This document shows, piece after piece, positions 17,220 through 23,705 of a stretch of 23,705 nt of DNA. The notes beneath the pieces were generated by a model. That model worked only from the letters and a program-made list of their open reading frames with translations, did no database searches and was not told the origin of the DNA. Origin of the DNA: a virus; IMG/VR virus record IMGVR_UViG_3300045998_000011, positions 1-23,705 of that record, one strand, 5' to 3'. The position numbers and the translations under genes are program-made. Numbering within the stretch: position 1 is the first letter of the stretch; every line of letters begins with the position of its first letter.

Positions 17220-17423
17220 ATGTTGCACAGGTATGTTGAATTTTTTGTCCGGTTTTTTACTCGCGTGTTAGGTCCGGAGGGGTCGAAGTATAACCCTAAC
17301 TGGGGTCGGTTCCCTTTTAGGGGGCCTAGGGCCGACCGTTACGCGTCGTACCACTTAGGGCACTATGCCGCCTATATCACAGCTGTAGTGCCCCTAGTGT
17401 TGATTGCCTTACTACTCGAATAG
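17220..17423 (+). CDS. Small membrane protein of unknown function
   Basis: This 67-residue protein is the last plus-strand gene. It has an aromatic, basic N-terminal part (MLHRYVEFFVRFFTRVLG), a polar Gly/Pro/Arg middle and a single C-terminal membrane span at about residues 48-66 (YAAYITAVVPLVLIALLL). A GGTG lies just before the ATG at 17220, nine bases after the preceding stop. The gene end overlaps the end of the minus-strand kinase gene by 12 bases. It may assist lysis or modify the membrane. I do not recognise it. Confidence 0.5.
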   Translation: MLHRYVEFFVRFFTRVLGPEGSKYNPNWGRFPFRGPRADRYASYHLGHYAAYITAVVPLVLIALLLE

Positions 17424-17900
17424 ATGCGACAAACCCTCTACTTGTCTGTAGAGTTCGTTGAATGTGTGGTTGTTATCGATCAACGTCATGGTGTTCTCAT
17501 CAAAAGCTATATCCATTGTTTTATCAAACCCAACACGGTCAAAGGCGTCAACGAAGAATATCAGATCGAATAAATGCCTGGAGGCTTCGAACTCCTTCCT
17601 GCATCGCATACCGTTGTAGATATCAGCATGAGCAACGACGCGCCGGGCTAACGCGGATTTGTCTTGACAGTTATACAGCGCTATAAGCTCACGCCATAGT
17701 TCGCGGTTGTCTTTGCGTCGTTTATATGCCTCCTCTGGCAACGTCGCCCTCGTTACTAACGACAAAACGGGAAAGATATATGGCAATGCGGCGAGGCTCG
17801 AGGATAGGTACGTTAGCTTAAACGTGGTCTGTAGTGCTACACACAATGTATCTTTTCCGTGTCCGCCGTGCCCTAATACGAGTATTCTCGGTTTCGACAT
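17412..17900 (-). CDS. P-loop nucleotide kinase, probable dNMP kinase
   Basis: This 162-residue protein carries a P-loop, GHGGHGKDT, at residues 10-18. The GKDT ending is typical of phage deoxynucleotide monophosphate kinases related to T4 gp1, which phosphorylate dNMPs, including modified ones, with ATP. Other matching features are NRELWRELIALYN, GMRCRKEFEASRHL with basic residues for phosphate binding, FDLIFFVDAFDR as the second core strand, and a late IDNNHT. An AAAAAGGAG lies about ten bases before the ATG. It is the last gene of the minus-strand operon, 18 bases after the cytochrome-like gene. With the family A polymerase it fits nucleotide supply for phage replication. Substrate identity, and whether the phage DNA is modified, cannot be read from the sequence. 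Confidence 0.82.
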   Translation of the reverse strand: MSKPRILVLGHGGHGKDTLCVALQTTFKLTYLSSSLAALPYIFPVLSLVTRATLPEEAYKRRKDNRELWRELIALYNCQDKSALARRVVAHADIYNGMRCRKEFEASRHLFDLIFFVDAFDRVGFDKTMDIAFDENTMTLIDNNHTFNELYRQVEGLSHLFE

Positions 17901-17918
17901 AATTTAATTTCTCCTTTT

Positions 17919-20900
17919 TCACTGTAAAACAAAACACTGATTAATTTGCGTACCCGCATCGTAAATAAACCAAGCCGGATCTTGTGGTAAGCAGGCATTT
18001 GTCGGAGTTGTAACGCAACATTCAAAACTTGCCGGGTTAATGTCGCACGGATTAACGGGCGGCGGAGCCATATCTCCTCCTGCCATTTCGAATAGCCGTC
18101 CAGCAGTGTACGTTAACTTGCTTCCATTCTGCGCAAATATCCCTGGCTGAGCATACGAGAATGTCCTATTCGGCATATCTTTCAATTGGAAAATATAAAG
18201 CCCGGTCGAACTGCTTGTGATCGGATCGGATAATATAACTTCTACGGTGTTAGCGTGTGGATCAATCTGTGGCGTGATATTTACACCATCAACGGTTACC
18301 GAAAAACTTAGCGGGTCAATCGGTGATTCGTCCCAGTAACCCACAATTAAGCTTGTAACTACGTTGCTGGTTAGAACCGGCGTAACAGTTAAAACCGGTG
18401 CCATCGTATCATCGTGTGCGTTGGTCTTTGGTGCGCCAATGTCAATCCAGCGAGCTATCAAACGTTTTTCAGCTTCGGTCATACCCACGACATAGGCCGC
18501 ATGTGTCGCAACATTTGGCCACGTTTCCGGGTATTCTTTGCCTAAATTATCAACCAGCACCTCGCTATTCGGGAAGGGCAGGCCGGTTGCCGGGTCACGT
18601 CCGTCCATTCGCTCGCCGTATAGCGCCCACACCAGCATGCTTGAACGGGCACTATTAAACGATATCCAGCGTGATGCTGTGCAACACGAATACCGGGGGA
18701 CAACGGAATCGCCGGGTTTAGATGTTTGGTTTTTTGCTATTAATTCGTAGGCGTTAATATCTAGCCGCAGGCCGGTGGCTAGGTGTGCTGGTTGCCCCTC
18801 ACCGTGGCAACTAGAACACCGGGCCTGAATGATCGGCGCGATGTCCGTTACCCAATCGGCAGCTAACGTTTTCAGTGAGTTTAAACTCACGGAACCGGGG
18901 TATAGATTGCTCACTGTTTCTGTGACTATCAGATCATTCAGGTTTCCTGCGAACAGTATTGGACTAGTACCGCCAGCGCTTTGAACCGGTTGAACAGGGT
19001 CAGTAAATAACGGTAGTGTATTCGGATCAATGGAATCCCGTGTGTGGACGTGGCAGCCGCCGCATATTTGTTTCTCGCCAGGGATAACCGACCGGGACGT
19101 TGTTTCAATGTCCAATGCCATACCCCGTTTGTCTAAAGTTTGAAACGCGAAAGGCGTATTAGCCGGAATCTTCAGCAAGAAACTTGTATCTGGGTTGCCT
19201 TGCGCATCCAGACTCCCATCAAGTTTTCTAACTGGAAATTCGCCAAGTATTCGGTACCAATGATTTTGATGCCCGGCAAATTTACTCGCATCAGCTTGAC
19301 CGGTGGCTAGCGGAAACGGCTTAACTGGCAGCAAAATCCGAACACCGTATATCTCCGAATTGTCAAATATTGCTAATTCGGCTCCCATTGTGCCTAGGTT
19401 GGTATAAGTACGGCCTGACATTGTGCCGCCGCCGTCTTTCATGTTCCAAGGCGTCCCATTGGGCGCGCGAGTCTCACGGTCAAACAGAGTAGCCGCGCCG
19501 GTCAAACCGAACGGCTCCCCTGGCAGCAATCGGCTATCCGTAGTTTTACTAATAATCGGCGGCTGGGCGCTGTAGATTTGGTTAAACGGTACCACCGCGC
19601 GCGGCATGATTTCATGGTATTCCGGGTGGTCAACAATTAATTGACATTGTGTGATGTGGTCTATTGTTTCTGTTCCGCCGGGAGTAAGGTGACAAACATA
19701 CAACCCGGCATCCTTTCCACATGACCGCGTGATAACGCCCGGTGTGCCCGTACAACCGCCCATCGTTGAACTCGCGCCAATAGTATAGGTTACGAGCAGG
19801 TCATTCCCAGGACCGGCTGCGGGGTGCGTAAACCGTCCATTGTGCTGTATTTCTGGATCGTCCGTAGGATATGGGGCACCGTTGATCGTGAGAAATCGCC
19901 CTGTTTGACGTTGCGGGTGTATCCAATAATCGGCGGGATCTGTGTAAAACTTAGCAGGAGAGTCGCCTGCATCTGAACCGGGTGTTAACGTGTATTGACC
20001 GGGTTTTAGGAATCCTTCAACGCCCGGCTCCCACTGAGTTACGACAGGATTGTAAAAATCCGGCCCAGGTGGATCGATCGGGAACCGCAACAGAGTGCCC
20101 ATGCCGCCGTTATTATGGTTGTAGTAGAGCGTCACGACAACCGAACCATCACTTAAAACGGTCGTATAGTGGTAGCTAACGTGTGTTGCATCAAATTTAC
20201 CCGCCAAAATGAAGGGAAAACTCCCATCGGTGTTAATTGTAAACGGAGAATACTGGTTATTTGATCCTTTTTGCCCAATGATATCGAAGCTAGTGTAAAT
20301 GATTTTTCCTCCAGGTGATAAAATCGGGTGTAGCTGTTGGTTCATGGCCCGATGGCCTAAAAAATCCAAATCCGTCCCGTTTGTGGAAAAAAGTTCGAAA
20401 CGGAGTGTTCCACTAGCCCGATTGGAAACGAAAGCTACCCTCCCGCCAGGTAAATAAACCGGTGACGTGTCCATGATCGGGATTGTCGGTGTCCAGCCAA
20501 AGGGTTTGCCCGGATAAGCGTGTGCGCCATACGGTTCAGAGGGTGGTGACACTCGGCTGACAACATTCGTTTGTAGATCGTATTCTAAAATAAAACTCCC
20601 GCCGACATACGGCAGCATTCCGGAACTCTTTCGGGTTCCGCTTGGTAAATCCACATAGCTTTGATTGTGATCCGGATACGGCCCCGCGTTTGTCATCTGA
20701 ATTCCGTAATTCGAAACAAAGCTAGACGTGTCTGGAAAGTATGTGAATGCGATTTTCGAACCATCAAGCGAAACAGCGGGATCTGCTACCGTGCAGCTAT
20801 TAGCGCAACCCACTAAAATTTCTTCGGTTTGATCCGGATGGTGCAACACCAGGTCACAACCCGGTTGCTGATAAATGTTATTCGATGCGGACAACCACAT

Positions 20901-21104
20901 GTCGTTGACACCGTTCCAGTTTAACAGGCTTTTTGCGCCCATCCAGTTTACAGGCTCTTGCCCTCTTGGGCATCGCACATATACCACGGCATAACTTAGT
21001 TGTGCATATTGCATAACGCGCCCTGCCCTTACATTGTGAGCACACATTGCGAGCACGAATATGGAAAAGCCTATCATGGTCATTTTGAATAGTCGGTCTT
21101 TCAT
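17919..21104 (-). CDS. Secreted dihaem HzsA-related protein (hydrazine synthase alpha-like)
   Basis: This 1061-residue protein starts with a Sec signal peptide (hydrophobic TMIGFSIFVLAMCA, likely cleavage after VRA at 27), so it should act in the periplasm. Residues about 35-350 look like a beta-propeller with TolB-like blades (VSLDGSKIAFTYFPD, TSPVYLPGGRVAFVSNR, LHPILSPGGKIIYTSFD). A middle region contains HWYRILGEFPVRKLDGS, IPANTPFAFQTLDKRG and PGEKQICGGCH, with a c-type haem motif at Cys681-His685. A cytochrome c-like region has a second motif, CSSCH, at 763-767, then ALYGERMDGRD and ARWIDIGAPK. An Ig-like segment and a Cys-rich tail close the protein. This order matches the hydrazine synthase alpha family. 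Function outside anammox bacteria is not known to me, and no partner subunits are visible. Maturation would need the host Ccm system. Codon use differs from the phage genes. Confidence 0.85.
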   Translation of the reverse strand: MKDRLFKMTMIGFSIFVLAMCAHNVRAGRVMQYAQLSYAVVYVRCPRGQEPVNWMGAKSLLNWNGVNDMWLSASNNIYQQPGCDLVLHHPDQTEEILVGCANSCTVADPAVSLDGSKIAFTYFPDTSSFVSNYGIQMTNAGPYPDHNQSYVDLPSGTRKSSGMLPYVGGSFILEYDLQTNVVSRVSPPSEPYGAHAYPGKPFGWTPTIPIMDTSPVYLPGGRVAFVSNRASGTLRFELFSTNGTDLDFLGHRAMNQQLHPILSPGGKIIYTSFDIIGQKGSNNQYSPFTINTDGSFPFILAGKFDATHVSYHYTTVLSDGSVVVTLYYNHNNGGMGTLLRFPIDPPGPDFYNPVVTQWEPGVEGFLKPGQYTLTPGSDAGDSPAKFYTDPADYWIHPQRQTGRFLTINGAPYPTDDPEIQHNGRFTHPAAGPGNDLLVTYTIGASSTMGGCTGTPGVITRSCGKDAGLYVCHLTPGGTETIDHITQCQLIVDHPEYHEIMPRAVVPFNQIYSAQPPIISKTTDSRLLPGEPFGLTGAATLFDRETRAPNGTPWNMKDGGGTMSGRTYTNLGTMGAELAIFDNSEIYGVRILLPVKPFPLATGQADASKFAGHQNHWYRILGEFPVRKLDGSLDAQGNPDTSFLLKIPANTPFAFQTLDKRGMALDIETTSRSVIPGEKQICGGCHVHTRDSIDPNTLPLFTDPVQPVQSAGGTSPILFAGNLNDLIVTETVSNLYPGSVSLNSLKTLAADWVTDIAPIIQARCSSCHGEGQPAHLATGLRLDINAYELIAKNQTSKPGDSVVPRYSCCTASRWISFNSARSSMLVWALYGERMDGRDPATGLPFPNSEVLVDNLGKEYPETWPNVATHAAYVVGMTEAEKRLIARWIDIGAPKTNAHDDTMAPVLTVTPVLTSNVVTSLIVGYWDESPIDPLSFSVTVDGVNITPQIDPHANTVEVILSDPITSSSTGLYIFQLKDMPNRTFSYAQPGIFAQNGSKLTYTAGRLFEMAGGDMAPPPVNPCDINPASFECCVTTPTNACLPQDPAWFIYDAGTQINQCFVLQ

Positions 21105-21196: not shown

Positions 21197-23539
21197 TCAC
21201 TTACCGTATTCGTACGCCTCCCACCCCGTCGCTTTGATTGGCCACCAGCTCGCCCAGTAAGGTCGAATTTCTAATAGATCCACCATTCTCTGTAATGTGT
21301 ATATCGGGGAGTCTGGTACCTCCGCTAGAGCCTCGTCGTGTGTATCTAATACAATAGGGTAGTTGTTTTGCTCGCAACGCGTTAGCGCTTCCGCGTGTAT
21401 ATCGCCAGCGACGGCCTGAACACCGTTTTGGAATATCCGGCCGCCATAGGTCTCTTGGCGTATCCAGCCCTTCGGGCCTTTCTTTGTCTGCGTGTTATAG
21501 CCCATAAAGGTTATTTTCCATGCGGGTCGCCCCATTTTGTCGTGTGTCTCGATTAGACGCGGTTCGTGGTAATACAAGTATCTACCCGACGGTAATTGCA
21601 TGTAGAGGGTGTCACCCTCTACGGATATAGTAAAGTCATTAACCTGGTGGTTAGTGCCTGGGTTCAGTATCGCTTTAATAAACGCACCCTCTAGCCCGAA
21701 TAATTCCGGTTGATTGTATCCCCGATACTGGCCGCCCCACATGTCGACAATTTCAGGGGATTCCTCCCGCCATTTTAACACGTCGGCTTTTATTTCACCG
21801 TCGTTGTTGAAATATTTCTCCGCCCCAAAATTCTTCCAAGCTCCGATCCACCCACCATAGCCACCGGCAAGTTCGCGGATTTTTCCAATACCGTTTCTCA
21901 CCGGGTGGTGCCTCCCGTGTTCTTTTTTATACGCCAGTATCTCCTCAAACGATATTCCTGTAGCGCGTGCCGCGCTTTCCTCGTATATCTTCCCATGCGT
22001 GCTAAATACGTCTATACGCCATTGACACCGTGACACACACGCAGCGACTACCGCCTCTACCGCGGAGAAATCACAACAAATAAATTTATGTTCGGGCTTT
22101 GGTATAATGAGACCACGAATGCACCCCGTTAATACCTCTATCGGTGAGACCCAAATCTGTTCTATGTATTCAAGGGACTTTGTTCTTATATCCCGCTTTG
22201 CTTGTCTTACGGCACCGTTACCCCACTCCGGCAAAACGTGAAACATAAGCGAGCCGCAATGCGGGCAAGCTTTTTGAACCCCAAAGAATCTACCACAAGA
22301 CTCGCATTCGGCTGTCTGTGGTCCTTCGGCAGTTAGGCTTTGCATGGGTCCGGACCAACGCCCTGTACGGTCGGCACCACAATAGACATATTGATTTCGT
22401 AGTCTGTTATCGCTACTTAATTGCAGTTTAATAGATTTCAACTTCTTTATATTTGCACCCATTATTAGCCGAGCGATGTCCAGAGCCCGATGAACATCCG
22501 GAGGCAAATACCCTTTCAATAACTCCTCTCTGTGCTCCTCGTCAACGCTCCTAGTGTGTACCCCCCGGGATTGCACCCACTCTATAAACTTTTTATTCTG
22601 ATTTACTGTCTTAACTAGCCCTCCGGTGAGCGCTTTAAGTTCTGCGTTGTATTTCTCCCCGGCTTGAGCTAACACGTCAAGTGAGGCATTCAACGTTTCG
22701 ATATCAAACAACATTCCCCTAGCGTTTATTGTTTGATCCGTGATCCACGTAGCTAGCTCATAAGGTGTAAGGTCGGGTATATGTGCGCTAACTTCATCCT
22801 CAGCTAGTACGTCCTGATCGTTGTATTTATAAAGTTTTTTAAAATCCTCCCATGCTGTTGCAGGGGTCCAACGATACGACGGGTTTAATTTAGTCGGGGT
22901 GTGTGGTACGGTTAATTTGCGTATTAGGTTAGTCCCTTCGGGGTCTTTACCGGTAGTGCCTAACACATTCGACAGTAGATCAAGTCCGCCGGGTAGGCTG
23001 TAACGTTTAGCTTTAGCTTTAGAGCAACGGCATTGGGTTATAAGGAGAGGCGGCCACCCCAATTTACGCACGCAGTACAGGTTCCAAACATACCACTCGA
23101 ACGTAGAGTTGTGCGCCTCCAGTAAGCCGCCCAGCTCCACATGACCTAATAAATCTGACGGGGTGGGCATAGTGGGCAACCATAACCGACGCCCCCCACC
23201 ATCCTTGAGGTCATAAACGAGCGATAATACTTCGAAAGTAGGATGCTCCACATAGGCCGGTACCCCGACTACCCCCAAGCCGCCGCCGTTAGATCCCGCG
23301 CCTATTACTTTATATGCAGGACTCCAACGGCGAGCGTCGGTTTGCGGTTGCTGGATAAACAGGTACCCCGCCGCGCTATAGGTTTCAAAGTCTAGCGATG
23401 GTAGTACTGTCGAAAAGTATTTCGCGGTACGTATTCGCGCACCGGCGGGGAGGTCGGAGGGGTCGACCGGTTCGGATGTGCTCCGACAGTTCGACCCACT
23501 CCCGCGTACTACCCCCGTGGGGGTATGATAAACGCTCAT
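21197..23539 (-). CDS. Family A DNA polymerase with 3'-5' exonuclease and zinc ribbon
   Basis: This 780-residue protein is the replicative DNA polymerase of the phage. The exonuclease domain has SLDFETYS (Asp50, Glu52), a second motif AHNSTFEW near 142-149, and YNDQD with Asp243. The polymerase domain has GRWSG at 393-397, motif A CCDFSAVEA with Asp490, motif B-like HPVRNGIGKIRELAGGYGG (Lys553, Tyr561) and motif C as THDE where VHDE is usual. Between GRWSG and the motif A region lies a zinc-ribbon-like insertion with two CxxC pairs (Cys412/415 and Cys425/428). In motif B the arginine is five residues before the lysine, one more than the usual spacing. The ATG at 23539 overlaps the previous stop as ATGA, so the gene is translated with an upstream gene. 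Confidence 0.92.
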   Translation of the reverse strand: MSVYHTPTGVVRGSGSNCRSTSEPVDPSDLPAGARIRTAKYFSTVLPSLDFETYSAAGYLFIQQPQTDARRWSPAYKVIGAGSNGGGLGVVGVPAYVEHPTFEVLSLVYDLKDGGGRRLWLPTMPTPSDLLGHVELGGLLEAHNSTFEWYVWNLYCVRKLGWPPLLITQCRCSKAKAKRYSLPGGLDLLSNVLGTTGKDPEGTNLIRKLTVPHTPTKLNPSYRWTPATAWEDFKKLYKYNDQDVLAEDEVSAHIPDLTPYELATWITDQTINARGMLFDIETLNASLDVLAQAGEKYNAELKALTGGLVKTVNQNKKFIEWVQSRGVHTRSVDEEHREELLKGYLPPDVHRALDIARLIMGANIKKLKSIKLQLSSDNRLRNQYVYCGADRTGRWSGPMQSLTAEGPQTAECESCGRFFGVQKACPHCGSLMFHVLPEWGNGAVRQAKRDIRTKSLEYIEQIWVSPIEVLTGCIRGLIIPKPEHKFICCDFSAVEAVVAACVSRCQWRIDVFSTHGKIYEESAARATGISFEEILAYKKEHGRHHPVRNGIGKIRELAGGYGGWIGAWKNFGAEKYFNNDGEIKADVLKWREESPEIVDMWGGQYRGYNQPELFGLEGAFIKAILNPGTNHQVNDFTISVEGDTLYMQLPSGRYLYYHEPRLIETHDKMGRPAWKITFMGYNTQTKKGPKGWIRQETYGGRIFQNGVQAVAGDIHAEALTRCEQNNYPIVLDTHDEALAEVPDSPIYTLQRMVDLLEIRPYWASWWPIKATGWEAYEYGK

Positions 23540-23705
23540 GGTTTTTGTGGCGGTAAAAAGTTATGAACCTGTTGTGGGTAGCCTTGACCGTAACCCTGCG
23601 AAGGTTGACTGTAGCCCTGCGAAGGTTGACTGTAGCCCTGCGAAGGTTGACTGTAGCCCTGCGAAGGTTGACTGTAGCCCTGCGAAGGTTGACTGTAGCC
23701 CTGCG
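23536..23705 (-). CDS. C-terminal end of Q/G/Y/S/P repeat protein (partial)
   Basis: The minus strand is open from the window edge to a TGA at 23538-23536 that overlaps the polymerase start as ATGA. The 55 visible codons read as five exact copies of the heptapeptide QGYSQPS, then QGYGQGYPQQVHNFLPPQKP. This is a disordered, tyrosine- and glutamine-rich tail. The start and any folded domain are outside the window. Single-stranded DNA-binding proteins often have Gln/Gly/Pro-rich tails and sit beside polymerases, so that is one possibility, but the acidic tip typical of SSB is absent. Confidence 0.65.
   Translation of the reverse strand, partial: QGYSQPSQGYSQPSQGYSQPSQGYSQPSQGYSQPSQGYGQGYPQQVHNFLPPQKP
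23601..23705. repeat. Tandem repeat, 21-base unit, five identical copies to window edge
   Basis: The plus-strand unit is aaggttgactgtagccctgc plus g. Copies start at 23601, 23622, 23643, 23664 and 23685, and the fifth ends exactly at the last base of the window. A diverged unit lies before 23601. On the minus strand each unit encodes QGYSQPS. The array probably continues beyond the edge. Confidence 0.97.

Follow-up and report, generated by a model that had tools for sequence, protein, structure and literature searches.

A phage-borne gene for a predicted exported dihaem protein of the hydrazine synthase alpha superfamily

Main finding

The stretch of DNA analysed here (hereinafter the window), a linear virus contig, is 23,705 bases long. 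It carries an intact gene for a 1061-residue protein with two c-type haem motifs. Because homologues align with this protein over about 1000 residues and it retains each of the 10 invariant cysteines, sequence comparison excludes chance similarity and identifies the ORF as a real homologue within the hydrazine synthase alpha (HZS-alpha) superfamily. The gene lies among phage genes, and we tentatively favour the reading that it is a phage accessory gene altering the surface or exopolysaccharide of the infected cell.

The dihaem protein

The ORF starts with ATG and stops with TGA (Table 1). Its N-terminus, MKDRLFKMTMIGFSIFVLAMCAHNVRA, resembles a Sec signal peptide as judged by eye. In the non-overlapping set of ORFs of at least 60 aa, it is the sole ORF of the window that bears a CxxCH motif. 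The initial annotation had described a 1061-residue ORF with such a start and with two CxxCH motifs, and both the intact frame and the motif positions (residues 681-685 and 763-767) confirm it.

The same annotation had placed the protein in the HZS-alpha family, to be checked by HMM search, and this placement stands. Specifically, a Pfam scan matches residues 636-685 to HZS_alpha with an E-value of 3.3e-11, and this middle domain passes the gathering score of PF18582 (44 bits against 26.6). In the PDB, hydrazine synthase alpha (HzsA) is matched by the single sequence with an E-value of 1.2e-8, and over the haem domains (PDB 5c2v) by a family profile of 13 members with an E-value of 6.2e-23. 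The N-terminal region matches HzsA and a propeller peptidase weakly in the profile search, and contains a PD40 propeller repeat (2.6e-3) that falls below the curated cut-off. The AlphaFold2 models were unusable, with pLDDT of 36.6 for the whole protein and 31.6 for residues 600-905.

Table 1. Positions of the dihaem gene, its parts and its neighbours in the window.
Feature	Position	Strand	Basis or remark
Gene for dihaem protein of the HZS-alpha superfamily, predicted to be exported	17919..21104	-	Intact ORF; Pfam HZS_alpha; profile match to 5c2v
Signal-peptide-like N-terminus, residues 1-27	21024..21104	-	Basic start, hydrophobic core, VRA before Gly (by reading)
Propeller-like N-terminal region, about residues 30-600	19305..21017	-	PD40 below cut-off; weak profile matches
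HZS_alpha middle domain, residues 636-685	19050..19199	-	Pfam PF18582
First haem motif CGGCH, residues 681-685	19050..19064	-	Invariant across the family
Second haem motif CSSCH, residues 763-767	18804..18818	-	Missing from the shortened version of phage G375
His868	18501..18503	-	Aligns with HzsA distal haem ligand His772 (profile alignment, 5c2v); nearly invariant in the family
Cys-rich C-terminal tail, residues 1010-1061	17922..18077	-	Alignments; lacks the Ig repeats and anchor of many bacterial relatives (domain scan)
Phage family A DNA polymerase (polA), upstream of the dihaem gene	21197..23539	-	PHROG 17, 1e-70
P-loop kinase-like gene, downstream, probably co-transcribed	17412..17900	-	Walker A-like GHGGHGKDT; PHROG 38514 (unknown function), 6e-15
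AAGGAG, likely ribosome-binding site of the kinase-like gene	17911..17916	-	By reading; directly after the dihaem stop codon

Relation to hydrazine synthase alpha

The order of domains is that of HzsA, namely a propeller-like region, an HZS_alpha middle domain with CxxCH and a C-terminal cytochrome with CxxCH. The two proteins also share two c-type haem motifs, both conserved in dihaem members of the family, and a distal histidine: in the profile alignment to 5c2v, His772 of HzsA, the distal ligand of haem alpha-II, aligns with His868, a predicted ligand. In contrast, Tyr591, which is the ligand of the active-site haem alpha-I in HzsA (PMC12607021), aligns with Arg689. The NCBIfam equivalog model for hydrazine synthase alpha (NF052339) fails, scoring 51.9 bits where the cut-off is 800, and no gene for a beta or gamma subunit (HzsB/C-like) was found in the window, which covers about half a genome. 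Judged from its sequence, the protein is a distant homologue of HzsA and not a hydrazine synthase subunit; the initial annotation had refrained from claiming hydrazine synthesis, and the score, the substitution and the missing partners bear out that restraint.

Distant homologues outside anammox bacteria have been sorted into clades I-IV (PMC12758564). Like the window protein, they seem to have an ordinary first haem site and lack a known function, clades I-III having no Tyr591. Unlike the window gene, which has no such neighbour, they were picked for an adjoining fused beta-gamma homologue; moreover, clade I lacks the equivalent of His772 and clades II-III lack the second haem, whereas the window protein has both. 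Because the counterpart of His772 is kept and Tyr591 is changed, and by comparison with these clades, haem II of the window protein is probably bis-His-ligated and haem I is probably ordinary.

Bacterial relatives and their gene contexts

Gammaproteobacterial relatives occur at fifteen loci, with 46-52% identity, and the identity of full-length bacterial homologues is 46-53%. In the tree, the window protein and the exopolysaccharide-locus proteins form a clade of 12 with support of 100/100, within which the 11 bacterial rows group together (support, 98/97) to the exclusion of the window protein. The window gene, lying outside that group, is therefore not a recent transfer from any sampled bacterial member of the clade. 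The window protein keeps 328 of the 418 columns that are invariant in nine bacterial rows, including 10 of 10 cysteines and 13 of 14 histidines, and this retention indicates, at the level of sequence, that the gene is constrained and under selection.

The HZS_alpha proteins of the exopolysaccharide loci (L002-L016, L053) resemble the window protein in nearly full length, at about 43-53% identity and with the same motifs and conserved residues. They differ in being chromosomal and in most cases longer, many of them carrying Ig or cadherin repeats and a C-terminal anchor, and in lying among exopolysaccharide genes whereas the window gene lies among phage genes. The repeats and anchors fit a non-enzymatic surface protein, in which the propeller and haem domains would give a stable scaffold or adhesin, able to mask receptors or bind matrix, with haems that are structural; so does the lack of an electron-transfer partner. 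We regard such a scaffold as fairly unlikely, since the haem motifs and His868 are strictly conserved in dihaem members, beyond what a scaffold would need, and the phage protein itself has neither repeats nor anchor.

The neighbours of the bacterial relatives include alginate lyases, sulfotransferases, glycosyltransferases, polysaccharide flippases, a sulfatase, and Kelch and pectate-lyase-like proteins. Exosortase A-system proteins surround the relatives in two genomes (G072 and G146). XrtA is present in 8 of the 12 genomes that carry a relative, and in four of the genomes (G002, G004, G008 and G146) it and the relative are no more than about 22 kb apart on one contig. Near these genes, further CxxCH proteins that might serve as electron-transfer or haem partners are almost entirely absent.

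PF18582 is matched in 39 of 274 genomes. A commoner HZS_alpha family of the same class, Gammaproteobacteria, served as the control for the exopolysaccharide context; it occupies a different recurrent locus that is not an exopolysaccharide context (seven examples). At these loci (L058-L064), the HZS_alpha proteins have two or three CxxCH motifs, and the recurrent neighbours, by reading, are an SH3-like protein, a TlpA-like thioredoxin, and outer-membrane-like and TPR-like proteins.

These contexts bear on the role first suggested for the gene, an auxiliary metabolic gene for periplasmic redox (nitrogen or C1) whose haems would, in the infected cell, transfer electrons or work on a small compound. 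In its favour are the pair of c-type haem motifs, the signal peptide and the real relationship to HzsA, and co-direction with polA makes early expression possible. The idea is nevertheless improbable in our judgement: the equivalog model fails and Tyr591 is replaced, there is no HzsB/C-like or other haem partner in the window and almost none beside the relatives, and one phage version of the family (G375, below) has a single haem motif. Because the bacterial relatives lie in polysaccharide loci and have no haem partner nearby, we prefer an action on the cell surface or exopolysaccharide.

The phage contig and the slot of the gene

The window encodes TerS, TerL, portal, protease-capsid, tape measure, tail J and a GH108 endolysin. 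These genes, and a layout that recurs in cultured relatives, agree with the earlier statement that the dihaem gene is phage-borne. The closest polA genes (about 48-52% identity) belong to phages of marine-type gammaproteobacteria with genomes of about 41-48 kb; thus, the contig holds about half of a phage genome. Tandem repeats lie at 2427-2536 (24-base) and 23584-23705 (21-base), with 98% matches; the second ends the contig and probably stopped the assembly. The endolysin is shared with one of the polA-related phages.

In four polA-related cultured phages, small variable genes come after polA, and beyond them lie genes on the opposite strand, which are lysis or tail genes where annotated. The dihaem gene fills the corresponding slot, with polA on one side and the convergent lysis genes on the other. 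No phage relative carries it in the post-polA slot, where other small genes are found. It is thus a non-core, inserted gene in a slot that varies among relatives, as expected of an accessory (moron) gene. Sequence scans found promoter- and terminator-like sites around it at chance level only.

Of the two neighbours named by the initial annotation, the family A polymerase is clear. The dNMP kinase is plausible only, from its Walker A-like motif; the gene has no Pfam or NCBIfam match, and its one PHROG is of unknown function. The same polymerase-cytochrome-kinase order, which it had been proposed to look for elsewhere, was not found among the phage relatives examined. A conserved polA-kinase pair was likewise rejected, as kinase relatives lack a window-type polA in the stretches examined.

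We considered whether a bacterial gene was wrongly joined to a phage contig during assembly. No second phage is known with the same junctions, and the codon usage of the dihaem gene correlates with the phage core at 0.73 against 0.88 for polA, although portal and capsid are similar at 0.77 and the measure is not decisive. On the other side, both junctions are clean and fall at gene borders, no bacterial genes flank the insert, and other phages carry the family. Because the arrangement of polA, small accessory genes and convergent lysis or tail genes recurs in cultured phages, and because the gene takes up precisely the space from polA to the AAGGAG of the kinase-like gene, a chimera is unlikely, and we give it very little chance.

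Distant versions in other phages

A tblastn search of 50,697 phage records gave no match for the window protein or for the Mu-internal protein of genome G328 described below. Scans of IMG/VR with patterns from the window protein, from its alignment and from the G328 alignment gave no relatives, so that neither route turned up a close phage relative of the window gene. The IMG/VR scans work by exact matching of short peptide or DNA patterns and may miss distant phage relatives. An IMG/VR scan for CxxCH motifs found G375, while a second hit of that scan (L083) was a false match; a scan with the G375 protein returned only G375 itself, and a second motif scan returned nothing related.

Genome G328 contains four family members. 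One lies within a Mu-like prophage with MuA, portal and DUF3164 (L065:14723-18340), and a second at the right-hand edge of that prophage (L056:6455-11911); of the others, one lies beside a transposase and one beside a GH108 endolysin. The latter (L091:7840-11589) directly precedes the endolysin, which is of the same family as that of the window phage.

G375 (IMG/VR contig IMGVR_UViG_3300048597_000667) is a 40-kb temperate phage with an integrase-like gene by reading and with matches to CII-like, Q-like, amidase and terminase genes. Its HZS-alpha-like protein, encoded between the CII-like and Q-like genes, has 666 residues and a single CxxCH, and ends after the first haem motif. One small ORF away lies a gene for an esterase-like secreted protein, and the two genes (L088:6251-9953) precede the Q-like and lysis genes. 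This secreted protein aligns with a bacterial esterase-like protein with 29% identity across 180 aa (E 1e-9, against a very small database), and the bacterial protein lies just upstream of the homologue at five loci. The esterase-like link, suggested by sequence, comes from one phage and a modest alignment.

Like the window protein, the G328 prophage and G375 versions are phage-borne and have a signal-peptide-like N-terminus and an HZS_alpha domain; they are only about 20-27% identical to it and fall on separate tree branches. The family is therefore not unique to the window phage, as two unrelated phages carry distant versions. The initial annotation had held phage-borne cytochromes of this size not to be commonly described; for the HZS-alpha family this agrees with the literature searched, although the window gene is no isolated case. 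From a microvirus, a putative multihaem protein resembling cytochrome c has been reported (PMC10190252), which is similarly a predicted phage c-type cytochrome-like protein; as described in the part of that source consulted, it comes from another phage group and is membrane-associated and multihaem. Hydrazine synthase is mentioned only as background in the parts consulted of two viral nitrogen papers (PMC8115048, PMC9083009).

Two of the three family-carrying phages are temperate by their genes, which would suit a lysogenic-conversion gene that aids the lysogen in biofilm or under redox stress and has no direct lytic use. We find this cargo role improbable for the window gene, which lies with replication genes, and no integrase was found in the half genome seen.

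Discussion

Several observations point, tentatively, to an action on the host surface or exopolysaccharide: the exopolysaccharide and XrtA contexts, the differing control family, the recurrence in phages, the esterase-like neighbour in G375 and the retention of Cys and His. Of these, the gene neighbourhoods are evidence of an indirect kind. The half genome seen contains no exopolysaccharide gene of the phage's own.

In the mechanism that we propose, the window gene would be a moron gene encoding an exported beta-propeller protein with two haems, a member of the HZS-alpha superfamily derived from the gammaproteobacterial protein clade found in exopolysaccharide (exosortase A) loci. The gene would be transcribed together with the replication genes, and its product would be exported by the signal peptide and loaded by the host with two c-type haems. 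Once in the periplasm or on the cell surface, the protein may act on host exopolysaccharide or envelope and so change the adsorption of competing phages to the infected cell, or the hold of the cell in its matrix, to the presumed benefit of the phage.

A broader, more speculative and rather doubtful extension is that HZS-alpha-like dihaem proteins form a recurrent class of phage accessory proteins, repeatedly captured and sometimes accompanied by an esterase-like partner, that modify or protect the exopolysaccharide surface of the host by an undescribed haem chemistry.

A viral gene annotated as HZS_alpha does not amount to viral nitrogen cycling. No function is known for the HZS-alpha relatives outside anammox bacteria, and their occurrence in exopolysaccharide loci and in unrelated phages provides a testable lead. 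The window protein would add a cytochrome-type protein to the tools that phages may use on host surfaces.
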